Positions 32,245 to 34,555 of a stretch of 42,611 nucleotides of DNA are shown piece after piece. Numbering within the stretch: the stretch's first letter is position 1; every line of letters begins with the position of its first letter. Source of the stretch: an uncultured Clostridia bacterium (lineage in GTDB: Bacteria; Bacillota; Clostridia; Oscillospirales; Oscillospiraceae); the NCBI GenBank assembly GCA_947365965.1, contig CANAZG010000019.1:1-42611 (forward strand), given 5' to 3'. The translations under genes and the position numbers were made by a program. The notes below the pieces were generated by a model. That model saw only the letters and a program-made list of their open reading frames with translations. It searched no databases and was not told the origin of the DNA.

Positions 32245-32273
32245 ATTTTAGCATGTGGGGCAGAATATGTCAA
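32245..32273 (-). promoter_or_regulatory. Promoter of the ABC exporter operon
   Basis: On the minus strand TTGACA (32268-32273, perfect), 17 bp, TAAAAT (32245-32250). Confidence 0.75.
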
Positions 32274-32390
32274 GGATCAGGCTTTTCATTTTCAGGGGTT
32301 CCGCTACCCATCCACAGGGGAAAAAATCCCTATGGACGGTTAGGGGCCGTTTTCGGCGGTGAAATGACAGGCTGGATCGGCGGAGCGGCG

Positions 32391-32424
32391 AAAGAGAGGA
32401 CCGCCATATGGCAATCCTCTCTTT
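32391..32424. terminator. Bidirectional hairpin at the left edge of the AT-rich island
   Basis: AAAGAGAGGA (32391-32400) pairs with TCCTCTCTTT (32415-32424), around an inner GCCATATGGC palindrome, with T/A-rich ends. It probably terminates the minus-strand DUF6809-like operon. The stretch 32274-32390 holds only a weak CCA/TGG inverted repeat near 32306-32340. Confidence 0.6.
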
Positions 32425-32453
32425 ATTCGCAATTTACTTTCCTGCCCGGTCAA

Positions 32454-32732
32454 TCATTTCTCGTTATAGCCGAAAATGTCAATCATCAGACGTACGCCCA
32501 GACAAAAGGCATGTTCAAAAAGATCTACCGCATCTTCTGCGTCAGCCTGCGATTCCAATTCTTGCATTTCCGCAAACTTCTTGTATTCTTCAGGTGACAG
32601 CAGGTTTTTGAAATGCTGTACTATGTCATCAATTTTATCAGTAAGCGCGATACGTTCAGGGGAGTACACACGCCTGCGCTCCCACGGGCTGACGTTGCCA
32701 TAGTAGAGTTCGCGTATCATGGATTCTCTCAT
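32454..32732 (-). CDS. DUF6809-like protein, copy 2
   Basis: A 92-aa helical protein. IRELYYGNVSPWERR at the start and DAVDLFEHAFCLGVRLMIDI at the end match the pattern I associate with DUF6809 proteins of Clostridial mobile elements (LYYGNIxPxE... FxxGxxLGxxLM); that assignment is from memory of the family pattern, not a search. Its ATG overlaps the stop of the previous gene (ATGA), so the pair is translationally coupled. Function unknown. AT-rich relative to the chromosome. Confidence 0.8.
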   Translation of the reverse strand: MRESMIRELYYGNVSPWERRRVYSPERIALTDKIDDIVQHFKNLLSPEEYKKFAEMQELESQADAEDAVDLFEHAFCLGVRLMIDIFGYNEK

Positions 32733-33001
32733 AACACATCCCCCCTGCCCTCTATCAGTTCCGCCATAAGCTGCGCCCCAAAATGGAACGCAAAACGGAA
32801 GCGGTCAAAGTCCATCATGTCCTCGACTTTACAGCTGGCATCTAAGTATGCATCCAGCAGGTCTTTTTGCTCGTCTGTCATAGAAGCGGCGAGCAATTCC
32901 AGATGTTCGCTTTTGATACGCGCCGTTCTGACAAACGGCGCGTCCTGCGCGTGAATTTTCTCGCGGGGCAGATTGTAGAGCATTTCCAGAATGTTTTCCA
33001 C
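32729..33001 (-). CDS. DUF6809-like protein, copy 1 (GTG start)
   Basis: A 90-aa protein paralogous to the next gene: ENILEMLYNLPREKIHAQD at the start, DFDRFRFAFHFGAQLMAELI at the end. The start is GTG (32999-33001), ~10 nt after AAAGGA. It lies in the same frame that the 52-codon small ORF of the neighbouring array would have if its G-run had three Gs. Here the first ~19 codons of that ORF (33002-33057) run directly into this gene with two Gs, giving a one-base offset. Function unknown. Confidence 0.8.
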   Translation of the reverse strand: MENILEMLYNLPREKIHAQDAPFVRTARIKSEHLELLAASMTDEQKDLLDAYLDASCKVEDMMDFDRFRFAFHFGAQLMAELIEGRGDVL

Positions 33002-33057
33002 GTTTGAATCGTCCTTTCCTTTTTGTCCGATATTACTTGAAAGGAAAGCTGACGCAT
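33001..33057 (-). pseudogene. 5' fragment of the array small ORF (copy L)
   Basis: Same first codons as the intact copy (MRQLSFQVISDKK), then a two-G version of the GGG run shifts the frame. The sequence similarity stops at TCAAAC, where the DUF6809-like gene begins. The shifted frame continues about 40 codons antiphase to that gene. Confidence 0.55.
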
Positions 33058-33103
33058 GATATAATATTTACGTCGCTTTTGCCTTTGGGCAATAGTCGGC
33101 TGG

Positions 33104-33142
33104 GGAAGTGGCGTGATACTTTAGCGAGTGGGCGCCACTTCC
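33104..33142. repeat. Inverted repeat of the array, copy L
   Basis: GGAAGTGGCG (33104-33113) with CGCCACTTCC (33133-33142), a 10-bp perfect stem and 19-nt loop, between an RHH gene and the small-ORF start. The same arms recur at 33597-33635 and 34100-34139 with different loops. No T-run, so more likely a protein site or RNA processing/stability element than a terminator. Confidence 0.65.
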
Positions 33143-33144
33143 TT

Positions 33145-33324
33145 CTATTTCTTCTTGAGATCGTCATGTACCTTATGGACACCACGCCTAACAACTTCCG
33201 CTTTTGATACTTCAAGTTCTTCAACACACTCGTCTAGCTTCTCAGCCGTTTCTTTATCAAGGCGGACTTTGAGAGAAATGTCCTTCGGGTTATCGGTAGG
33301 ACGTCCCATTTTTTTATTCCCCAA
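33145..33324 (-). CDS. Ribbon-helix-helix protein, array copy 1
   Basis: A 59-aa RHH/CopG-like DNA-binding protein. It begins MGNKKMGRPTDNPKDI, has an alternating beta strand ISLKVRLDKETAEKLDECV and a helix SKAEVVRRGVHKVHDDL, the usual RHH layout (strand, helix A, turn, helix B). All three array members have AGGTGA, 6 nt, then TTG, so I take TTG at 33322-33324 as start. The protein likely forms a dimer that represses its own promoter (33357-33385). Confidence 0.82.
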   Translation of the reverse strand: MGNKKMGRPTDNPKDISLKVRLDKETAEKLDECVEELEVSKAEVVRRGVHKVHDDLKKK

Positions 33325-33356
33325 CAATTATCACCTCACTTTTTGGGGTCACTAAT

Positions 33357-33385
33357 ATTATAACTTACCGACGTCGCAAAGTTAA
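33357..33385 (-). promoter_or_regulatory. Promoter of RHH copy 1
   Basis: On the minus strand TTAACT (33380-33385), 17 bp, TATAAT (33357-33362). A half operator TTTTGGGGT (33341-33349, plus strand) follows the -10. Confidence 0.55.
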
Positions 33386-33403
33386 TGGTTTCTCTTTTGG
33401 GTT

Positions 33404-33551
33404 TTATAATTCTTTGTTCTGGTTTCTGCGTGGCTGCTGCTCCTGACGCATGATACAGTAAACGCTTCTGCGGATTTGCTCGACTTCCTTTACCTCGTTT
33501 GAACCGTCCTTTCTTTTTGTCCGATATTACTTGAAAGGAAAGATGACGCAT
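33404..33551 (-). pseudogene. Array small ORF, copy M (frameshifted)
   Basis: It starts MRHLSFQVISDKK like the intact copy, but the G-run has one G where the intact copy has three, shifting translation into another frame (a 71-codon unrelated reading to 33336). The original frame resumes after the shift as EVKEVEQIRRSVYCIMRQEQ and ends at TAA 33404-33406. A 9-bp in-frame deletion (three residues) occurred without frame loss, which suggests past coding function. Confidence 0.7.
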
Positions 33552-33596
33552 GATATAATATTTACGTCACTTTTGCCTTTGGGCAATAGTCGGCTG

Positions 33597-33635
33597 GGGA
33601 AGTGGTGGATTCTTTGTGGGAGTGCGCCACTTCCC
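33597..33635. repeat. Inverted repeat of the array, copy M
   Basis: GGGAAGTGG (33597-33605) with CCACTTCCC (33627-33635), 21-nt loop. Same arms as copies L and R. Confidence 0.65.
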
Positions 33636-33636
33636 A

Positions 33637-33816
33637 TCATTTTTCTTGTAGGCTCTCATACAGGCTGTGAACACCGCGTCTTAAAACCTCAGAGCGTGTG
33701 ATATTGAGTTTTGTCATGCAATACTCAATTTTTTCCATTGTTTCCTTGTCGGCTCGTGTTTTAATCTGAGTGTCCAGTGGTTTCTCTGGATGGGGGCCTG
33801 GCTTTTTGCGTGCCAA
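33637..33816 (-). CDS. Ribbon-helix-helix protein, array copy 2
   Basis: A 59-aa protein that short-ORF cut-offs miss. It starts MARKKPGPHPEKPLDTQIKT, with strand then helix ADKETMEKIEYCMTKL and second helix TRSEVLRRGVHSLYESL. The TTG start at 33814-33816 has AGGTGA 6 nt upstream. It is strongly diverged from copies 1 and 3 (shared mainly the R-R-G turn of helix B), while the DNA between copies is nearly identical. It has its own TTGACA promoter with an inverted-repeat operator. Confidence 0.8.
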   Translation of the reverse strand: MARKKPGPHPEKPLDTQIKTRADKETMEKIEYCMTKLNITRSEVLRRGVHSLYESLQEK

Positions 33817-33833
33817 ACAGCGTCACCTCCAAC

Positions 33834-33877
33834 TTGGGGTACAAGTTAATTTTACAACTTGGACCCCAAATTGTCAA
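33834..33877 (-). promoter_or_regulatory. Promoter and operator of RHH copy 2
   Basis: TTGACA (33872-33877, perfect), 17 bp, TAAAAT (33849-33854) on the minus strand. An inverted repeat TTGGGGT (33834-33840) / ACCCCAA (33863-33869) brackets the -10, a classic layout for autorepression by an RHH dimer. Confidence 0.65.
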
Positions 33878-33895
33878 CACCCATTTTCACATGAT

Positions 33896-34054
33896 TTATA
33901 AAACGACACCTTGCGTTCTGTGTGGCTGCTGTTCCCGCTGCTCCCGGCGCATGATACTGTAAACGCTTCTGCGGATTTGCTCGGCTTCCTTTACCTCGTT
34001 TGAACCGTCCTTTCCCTTTTTGTCCGATATTACTTGAAAGGAAAGCTGACGCAT
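33896..34054 (-). CDS. Small basic protein of the RHH array, intact copy R (52 aa)
   Basis: The only full-length copy of the array's small ORF. It reads MRQLSFQVISDKKGKDGSNE, then VKEAEQIRRSVYSIMRREQR and EQQPHRTQGVVL. It is Arg/Gln-rich and helical. Across copies most nucleotide changes in the C-terminal half are at third positions or give similar residues, which supports real coding. No clear ribosome site precedes the ATG; a GCC-AAAA-GGC hairpin lies 20-33 nt upstream. Family unknown to me. It follows an RHH gene in each module, so a paired function (partner of the RHH protein, or mobile-element accessory) is a guess. Confidence 0.6.
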   Translation of the reverse strand: MRQLSFQVISDKKGKDGSNEVKEAEQIRRSVYSIMRREQREQQPHRTQGVVL

Positions 34055-34099
34055 GATATAGTATTTACGTCACTTTTGCCTTTTGGCAATAGTCGGCTG

Positions 34100-34139
34100 G
34101 GGAAGTGGTGTGGTTCTTGGTAGGAGTGCGCCACTTCCC
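34100..34139. repeat. Inverted repeat of the array, copy R
   Basis: GGGAAGTGG (34100-34108) with CCACTTCCC (34131-34139), 22-nt loop. Confidence 0.65.
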
Positions 34140-34140
34140 A

Positions 34141-34317
34141 TCATTTTTTCAGGTCGTCCTTTAACTTCTTAATCCCTCGCCGCGCCGCTTCCATACGGGG
34201 AACCTGTTCTTGTTTGCAATATTGCTCAAGAATTTCCTTGCATTCCTCATCATATTTTACGGTCATGTGATAGGGTTTTGGATTGTCAGTAGGACGCCCC
34301 ATTTTTTTATCACCCAA
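34141..34317 (-). CDS. Ribbon-helix-helix protein, array copy 3
   Basis: A 58-aa protein. It begins MGDKKMGRPTDNPKPYHMTV, has helix A DEECKEILEQYCKQE and helix B RMEAARRGIKKLKDDL. TTG at 34315-34317 follows AGGAGGTGA with 6 nt spacing, matching the other two copies; an internal ATG at 34302 is the alternative. Likely an autorepressor, as its promoter also carries a TTTGGG/CCCAAA inverted repeat. Confidence 0.8.
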   Translation of the reverse strand: MGDKKMGRPTDNPKPYHMTVKYDEECKEILEQYCKQEQVPRMEAARRGIKKLKDDLKK

Positions 34318-34334
34318 AATTTGTCACCTCCTAC

Positions 34335-34377
34335 TTTGGGACTTCTTAAGTATAAACTAAAGGAACCCCAAAATCAA
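34335..34377 (-). promoter_or_regulatory. Promoter and operator of RHH copy 3
   Basis: TTGATT (34372-34377), 17 bp, TATACT (34349-34354) on the minus strand. TTTGGG (34335-34340) and CCCAAA (34367-34372) bracket the -10 as in copy 2. Confidence 0.6.
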
Positions 34378-34398
34378 GGGCTTCTATCTGGAACTTTA

Positions 34399-34499
34399 TC
34401 ATTCCTTGTTTTGGTTTCTGTATGGCTGCTGTTCCCGCTGTTCCTGGCGCATAATACTATAAACGTTTCTGCGGATTTGCTCGGCTTCCTTTACCTCGT
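34399..34499 (-). pseudogene. 3' fragment of the array small ORF, outermost copy
   Basis: Only the C-terminal ~32 codons (EVKEAEQIRRNVYSIMRQEQ ... NQNKE, stop at 34399-34401) remain. The similarity ends at 34499, the border with the GC-rich chromosome. Changes relative to copy R are mostly synonymous. Confidence 0.65.
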
Positions 34500-34555
34500 C
34501 TTTGAGTGCAAAATACGATATATTCCTTTGGGATCATACAGCAGGAGATGGTTTT

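Follow-up and report, generated by a model that had tools for sequence, protein, structure and literature searches.

Tandem arrays of unlike ribbon-helix-helix repressor genes, each with a near-identical predicted antisense RNA gene, ahead of small target genes in Clostridia

We analyzed a 42,611-nt stretch of DNA (hereafter the window) from an uncultured Clostridia bacterium (assembly GCA_947365965.1, contig CANAZG010000019.1), and found that positions 33001–34510 hold three tandem modules of about 500 bp in which different small ribbon-helix-helix (RHH) repressor genes, each accompanied by a near-identical predicted antisense RNA gene, stand ahead of small target genes. The arrangement looks like on/off control of the plasmid style reused by mobile DNA, and is probably a dual-control operon for mobile-DNA establishment, whose arrays collect repressors of different specificity. 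The modules, promoter and terminator letters, covariation, operators and array statistics described below are all directly visible in the sequence.

On the minus strand each module runs from fragment A, which is homologous to the last 28–36 codons of a MobA/MobL relaxase gene, through an RHH gene to a constant element of ~120 bp (B), and two DUF6809 genes lie downstream of the last B. Longer forms of the relaxase gene of fragment A occur in L045, L046, L047, L088 and L119 (L-numbers are labels of compared loci or stretches, G-numbers of genomes). One repeat family starts at 32994, 33489 and 33990 (spacing 495 and 501), a second at 33410, 33911 and 34411 (501 and 500), and a 118-nt family at 33016, 33510 and 34013, bearing out the periods of 495, 501 and 501 bp claimed in an initial annotation of this DNA; the inverted repeat that it had described for each module was present in all three. 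Neighboring RHH proteins in the window share 30% and 43% identity, and neighboring constant elements 92–95% and 89%. In the window's own genome (77% complete), four DNA matches and three covariance-model matches were found, all at the array only. The initial annotation had also placed a 52-codon open reading frame (ORF) in each module and taken it for a gene. An ORF of that length exists only at 33896–34054, its counterparts having 71 and 59 codons, and the equivalent frames part ways after ~13 residues because they cross the antisense promoter and then enter either a relaxase relic or the DUF6809 start. As the frames differ among modules and span both promoter and relic, we ruled out a gene here: the supposed ORF is a frame that happens to stay open from B into A, and the constant part consists of a predicted antisense RNA gene and a relaxase 3′ relic.

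A covariance model built from 17 copies of B, together with a pattern scan that yielded one contig from viral sequences and 77 stretches of genome contigs, returned 130 matches from 96 sources; 118 of these matches were distinct. Three sets were drawn from the searches: 110 copies (eight weak or cut copies of the 118 removed: L081, L103, L054, L055 twice, L053, L075 and L113:7696), 43 further copies that the covariance model alone recovered (after 8 of 59 matches, the weakest or those on the opposite strand, had been dropped), and 156 copies (without L103, L054, L081, L113:7696 and the partial L180:2242) at 116 loci, mostly in Clostridia. The distribution is patchy: in a sample of 398 genomes across the phylum the element turned up in 5, counting the window's own (another of the five, G500, gave a weak match without a called RHH), and it was present in 8 of 80 genomes of one family, where a single genome can hold as many as 17 copies, and in 3 of 10 genomes of a distant family. 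A distant branch from another family (L053, L055, L207–L211) has a shorter element, with TTGCCA as the −35 in six copies, and the target protein of L055 belongs to no known family.

Of the 116 loci, 83 have one module, 27 two, five three and one four. With 33 arrays among them, the window does not hold a random duplication of an element that is single elsewhere, the alternative raised in the initial annotation. Its alternation of constant and variable segments proved to be the general pattern: across 26 adjacent pairs in 23 arrays, B was 86% identical between neighboring modules versus 62% between loci (P < 1e-4), and the RHH proteins 43% versus 40% (P = 0.11). Some of these arrays are mutually related, so they do not represent 23 independent events. 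In adjacent modules, then, B is alike and the repressors are not: an array combines differing repressors with a single antisense type, a pattern that plain duplication does not yield. This bears on the idea that a defunct mobile-element end was simply duplicated in tandem here, without function. Every window module does contain a relaxase relic, the same join occurs twice, and the first RHH gene of the L034 array has no intact start; we nevertheless consider this explanation improbable, because the RHH ORFs and antisense genes of the window are intact, arrays of unlike RHHs recur in 23 loci (some related to one another), and simple duplication would yield RHHs that are alike.

The strand of B opposite the RHH genes is predicted to be an antisense RNA gene. 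On both strands B folds far better than its shuffles, and the opposite strand carries TTGAAA-17-TATAAT, with TG before the −10, ahead of a predicted RNA of ~80 nt with two hairpins, whose terminator adjoins the RHH stop; the T-rich stretch after the second hairpin is complementary to the final codons and stop of the RHH gene. Under a scan pattern that allowed spacers of 15–17 bp and fixed part of the promoter letters, the spacer was exactly 17 bp in 104 of 110 copies, and it was 17 bp in 39 of the 43 covariance-only copies (six distant ones among these 39 have TTGCCA in place of TTGAAA). A T-rich terminator tail (at least 7 T in 12) was present in 106 of 110 and 42 of 43 copies. Reading mismatches on the sense strand, we counted ~93 A-C versus 2 G-T in pairs 1–10 (56 of the ~93 from a single pair; 37 versus 2 without it) and ~57 versus 9 in pairs 53–56; since a sense A-C is an antisense G-U, both transcribed hairpins are wobble-tolerant on the antisense strand. 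The stem 58–62/100–104 behaves in the reverse manner and tolerates sense wobble (~67 G-T versus 31 A-C, all 31 from one pair). In the 17-copy alignment, cells with both sides of a pair changed numbered 27 and 28, against shuffle means of 9.5 and 9.6, values reached by none of 500 shuffles, and the covariation score also exceeded all slid versions of the structure.

That the sense-strand stems covary and fold well might also be expected if B acted only in cis, as an RNA leader on the sense transcript (an attenuator or riboswitch), with no antisense RNA. We regard this as having little chance of being correct, since it is on the antisense strand that hairpins 1 and 2 accept wobble pairs and that promoter and terminator are kept. 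The promoter is retained (loose test) in 34 of 40 upstream modules and 111 of 116 last modules, although a Shine-Dalgarno (SD) sequence and start codon follow B in 7 of 40 upstream versus 104 of 116 last modules; under a strict promoter test the counts were 29 of 40 and 95 of 116 (P = 0.26).

Folding of the leader predicts how the antisense RNA might act. The leader contains TCCTTTC, which is complementary to the antisense −35 region and able to base-pair with the target ribosome-binding site GAAAGGA, and in the predicted fold the stem 58–62/100–104 keeps TCCTTTC occupied. The folding test covered 53 of 75 targets (17 had no anchor and 5 were unmatched). When nt 1–72, to which the predicted antisense RNA is complementary, were covered, mean predicted SD accessibility fell from 0.54 to 0.19, with a loss of more than 0.2 in 40 of 53 leaders and a gain in one; among 265 shuffled leaders in the same test there were 10 losses and 37 gains. 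Altering only the stem arm lowered predicted accessibility in 21 of 53, and for the window leader covering nt 1–72 took it from 0.72 to 0.01. Antisense pairing is thus predicted to hide the target ribosome-binding site.

The other half of the module is a small repressor gene. An ORF of 44–75 codons with a ribosome-binding site ends beside the element in 93 of 114 copies, and one of 44–80 codons lies directly upstream in 33 of the 43 further copies, where RHH-likeness was judged by reading the sequences and L206 was not RHH-like. The RHH proteins are mostly 55–62 aa without an extra domain, and the 93 that were called form 42 clusters at a 75% identity threshold. In most of the nine largest, as judged by reading, a palindrome of the cluster's own lies over the promoter; the palindrome is weak for the RHH type of window module 3. 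These type-specific palindromes make it likely that the repressors differ in specificity, as the initial annotation had proposed.

Two RHHs from the same genome tend to resemble each other less than expected by chance. Among 253 same-genome pairs, 10 reached 60% identity versus 21.0 expected (permutation P = 0.006), 2 reached 70% versus 7.2 (P = 0.019) and 1 reached 75% versus 4.6 (P = 0.05), while P was 0.09 for mean identity. With one RHH per 90% cluster, 8 pairs reached 60% versus 16.8 expected (P = 0.014), but P was 0.12 at 70% and 0.16 at 75%. The exception is L100/L117, in a metagenome-assembled genome; assigning both to one genome on the basis of the same isolate name changed the count of pairs at or above 75% from 0 of 251 to 1 of 253. 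The genome grouping of L133 is unproven and affects no pair, no other RHH having been called in that group, and L206 (wrong ORF) was left out of the pair statistics and the array comparison. The antisense element, by comparison, is more alike within genomes (0.70 versus 0.62). The genome G767 (L176–L185) has 17 element copies, with three close copies on each of three contigs, and its called repressors all differ, no pair reaching 75%.

To place the targets, we considered 115 copies (without L103, L054 and L113:7696), of which 29 are followed by another module and 86 are last elements. A called small ORF (57–153 aa) follows 75 of the 86 and none was called after 11; the 75 targets comprise 33 DUF6809-like proteins, 19 of a second family, 18 of a third and 5 others. 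Profile comparison links the third family distantly to DUF6809 (hhalign probability 81, E = 1.3e-5) and found no relation between DUF6809 and the second. The 90-aa DUF6809 protein of the window has a predicted structure of three helices (mean pLDDT 84, pTM 0.56). Pfam scans of representative targets found no replication initiator, and PADLOC, which is not a toxin library, gave no match for window proteins and one weak match for a third-family target (PDC-S15, E = 0.009).

The array sits in an island of ~2.2 kb. The flanking ABC-transporter and XdhC-like genes are 2815 bp apart here, a DUF1905 gene included, versus 242–944 bp in ten congeners, namely those of 24 other genomes searched whose best flank-gene matches lie side by side on one contig (distances from listed coordinates). 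Similarity to congeners ends at 32253–32274, marking the left end; the right end is less certain, being the repeat end only, with 1 of 11 compared loci matching beyond it, from 34589. A fuller context is found at L119, where a serine recombinase, a complete relaxase (PF03389, E = 1.6e-97), an RHH, B and two DUF6809 genes follow one another. L088 resembles it, with an additional DUF3847 gene and with recombinase and relaxase identified by ORF reading; L122 has a relaxase 3′ end upstream, L047 likewise has the relaxase, cut by the contig end, and in the window only 3′ relics remain. The link to a mobile element made in the initial annotation therefore stands for a few loci, while most other copies are orphans within the stretches compared. 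Searches of plasmids found no match for window 33404–34150, L119 1900–2300 or the window DUF6809 protein, and phages none for one DUF6809 relative; one 20-kb IMG/VR contig carries a copy (L144, 5287–5407) with a DUF6809-like gene.

Taken together, these features make dual control by an RHH repressor and an antisense RNA a likely explanation. Transcription, RNA action, protein function, the establishment role and array formation are what we infer from them, as follows. Each module would be a plasmid-type dual control unit in which an autoregulated, CopG-like RHH repressor acts on its own palindromic operator, and the RHH transcript would read through B into the target gene. An antisense RNA of ~80 nt would start inside the leader of the next gene and end at the RHH stop codon; by pairing with the leader it would free the anti-Shine-Dalgarno stretch and turn target translation off. 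The unit would be carried by integrative mobilizable elements (serine recombinase, MobA/MobL relaxase, RHH, antisense RNA, DUF6809), its orphan chromosomal copies being commoner than element-borne ones, and entry into a repressor-free cell would permit a burst of the target, then silencing. That the target is an establishment gene of mobile DNA is a serious candidate, to which we give slightly less than an even chance. Arrays would arise as units with different RHHs join ahead of one target with the antisense RNA kept, and the joins in the window would still bear relaxase-gene scars; growth by homologous recombination in the constant parts, as first suggested, is plausible.

Several results weigh against this interpretation. 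Both the scan pattern and the covariance model (R1) favor copies with these promoter letters, which leaves spacer length, the unconstrained −10 letters and the T-run as the only partly independent tests. Two stems, the outer stem 45–50/112–117 (~27 G-T versus 41 A-C) and 69–73/90–94 (26 versus 37), show no sense-wobble preference, and further standard pair types were not above shuffles, 472 and 476 of 500 reaching the value. There was no clear switch in 13 of 53 leaders. Failures of the loose promoter test were commoner among upstream modules (6 of 40) than among last ones (5 of 116; P = 0.03), so that part of the upstream copies may be in decay. On the mobile side, a relaxase gene or its 3′ end lies directly upstream only in L088, L119 and L122 among the scored copies, L045 and L046 show no RHH unit after the same relaxase gene in the stretch shown, and no mobility-gene family occurs in at least 4 of 85 loci. 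Finally, the predicted DUF6809 fold had no match in the PDB.

Strong conserved hairpins, the tandem repetition of gene plus hairpin and a relaxase nearby in a few loci could alternatively mark the constant element as a recombination or transfer site, an attC-like or oriT-like hairpin, with the RHH genes as site-specifically moved cassettes. This seems quite unlikely to us: the conserved letters are those of a sigma-70 promoter with fixed spacer and of a terminator, no integrase family recurs in at least 4 of 85 loci, and modules join at differing places after the element, through a relaxase relic in the window, just past the target start codon in L140 and directly to the next promoter in L108. 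An integron-like cassette array was rejected on the same grounds of varying joins and no recurrent integrase family, and an oriT reading of the hairpin, prompted by a likeness to IncQ nick regions, was dropped because the letters concerned vary between copies. Least probable of all is a toxin-antitoxin pair of RHH and DUF6809 with an added antisense RNA, since, although RHH antitoxins are common and the genes here are small and paired, the RHHs are mostly 55–62 aa without an extra domain and the targets come from at least two unrelated families.

Among known systems, pT181-type countertranscribed RNAs are two-hairpin antisense RNAs that end in a terminator and exert transcriptional control. 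An Rfam scan found no family at gathering score and weak matches only; RF00242 (ctRNA_pT181) matched antisense RNA 3 over the whole model, far below threshold (E = 8.7, 21.3 bits versus a gathering score of 56), a likeness of kind only. The system described here differs from pT181 in having no rep gene and in its predicted translational control. A closer parallel is copG-rnaII-repB of pMV158, in which a small RHH auto-repressor is combined with an opposite-strand intergenic antisense RNA that has a hairpin terminator and acts on translation of the next gene (PMC4485353). Shared with it are a small RHH gene directly upstream of B, an RHH promoter with its own operator (type-specific inverted repeats) and an intergenic opposite-strand antisense gene with promoter and terminator, the latter known here from sequence features. 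In contrast to pMV158, the target is a small protein and not RepB, the predicted RNA has ~80 nt and two hairpins rather than 48 nt and one, and the setting is chromosomal or a mobilizable element, with arrays of unlike repressors and one antisense type; because the defining rep gene is absent, this is not a strict member of that group. The unit also resembles the Regp576 regulon of the conjugative plasmid p576 (pLS20 family), where an RHH represses its own and establishment-gene promoters, with a burst after transfer (PMC8708921); there one repressor serves several operons, and the passages considered mention neither antisense RNA nor repressor arrays. CopG in a recipient is described as hindering establishment of its own plasmid and not of unrelated plasmids (PMC5717011). 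Together, exclusion by pMV158 and the p576 burst suggest establishment operons with exclusion by repressor type. Titles and abstract beginnings in the open-licence literature contained nothing on this arrangement and no RHH with antisense RNA in integrative mobilizable elements, and no mention of DUF6809 was found in the portion of that literature covered.

A further, tentative and rather doubtful, extension is that the arrays are repressor-based immunity repertoires, in which each RHH with the shared antisense RNA would silence incoming establishment genes of one repressor type; cells would gain units of new specificity from the elements they meet, and elements would answer by carrying several repressor types. 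We raise it because RHHs that share a genome tend to differ more than chance would predict, whereas the antisense elements of one genome resemble one another more, and because upstream modules mostly keep the antisense promoter, mostly without an SD and target directly after. More broadly, plasmid-type repressor and antisense control would here be uncoupled from replication and tied to at least two unrelated small-protein families in Clostridia, giving DUF6809 genes a first regulatory context. The element would also be a strong marker for candidate establishment or anti-defence genes without recognizable sequence, and the arrays of constant RNA and variable repressors would make testable both exclusion of mobile elements by repressor type and the collecting of types by hosts or elements.

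Table 1. Annotated and predicted features of the array and its island in the window.
Feature	Position	Strand	Basis
RHH repressor gene, module 1 (58 aa)	34141..34317	-	ORF; phrog_876 transcriptional repressor, E 4.7e-12; no Pfam RHH match; type also in L034, L130
RHH repressor gene, module 2 (59 aa)	33637..33816	-	ORF; phrog_876, E 2.3e-11; no Pfam match; type also in L035, L088, L093, L128
RHH repressor gene, module 3 (60 aa)	33145..33327	-	ORF; Pfam RHH_1, E 4.7e-6; phrog_876, E 2.9e-16; type also in L068, L143, others
Antisense RNA promoter, module 1	34034..34062	+	TTGAAA-17-TATAGT, TG before -10; 10/12 matches
Antisense RNA promoter, module 2	33531..33559	+	TTGAAA-17-TATAAT, TG before -10; 11/12 matches
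Antisense RNA promoter, module 3	33037..33065	+	TTGAAA-17-TATAAT, TG before -10; 11/12 matches
Predicted antisense RNA 1	34069..34149, ends approximate	+	Two hairpins, 3′ terminator; terminator-like site 34123-34137; fold of 34064-34150, -40.7 kcal/mol, z -6.45
Predicted antisense RNA 2	33566..33645, ends approximate	+	Fold of 33560-33645, z -6.27; terminator-like site 33618-33634
Predicted antisense RNA 3	33072..33154, ends approximate	+	Fold of 33067-33154, z -5.50; terminator-like site 33126-33140; faces leader of DUF6809 genes
Sense leader of DUF6809 genes, predicted Shine-Dalgarno switch	33002..33142	-	Folding prediction
DUF6809 small protein gene (90 aa), likely regulated target	32729..33001	-	Pfam PF20648, E 1.1e-12
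Second DUF6809 gene (92 aa), likely same operon	32454..32732	-	Pfam PF20648, E 2.8e-17
MobA/MobL relaxase 3′ relic, module 1	34396..34524	-	tblastn 72% over 36 aa at 34417-34524; DNA match 34396-34499 to module 3
Relaxase 3′ relic, module 2	33914..33999	-	tblastn 79% over 28 aa at 33914-33997
Relaxase 3′ relic, module 3	33404..33498	-	DNA match only, to modules 1, 2 and relaxase 3′ ends of L045, L046, L047; not recovered by tblastn
RHH-1 promoter	34349..34377	-	9/12 matches
RHH-2 promoter	33849..33877	-	11/12 matches; 14-bp inverted-repeat operator overlaps
RHH-3 promoter	33357..33385	-	10/12 matches; best inverted repeat 33361-33384
Inserted island, approximate ends	32275..34510	.	Between ABC-transporter gene and DUF1905/XdhC-like genes

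Some further observations concern individual loci. In L119 (1–8000; Lachnospiraceae bacterium 10-1) the element is followed by a VirD4-like fragment, recognized by eye, and another recombinase-like ORF, neighbors that suggest it may sit inside a larger conjugative element. The L144 contig is possibly a prophage or a misfiled mobile element. At L034 3539–3830 the first RHH of a two-module array has no intact start and the antisense element remains, which we take as a partly decayed module. In the window, an inverted repeat at 32391–32424, with 17-nt arms that are 88% complementary, lies past the second DUF6809 gene and is perhaps the operon terminator.

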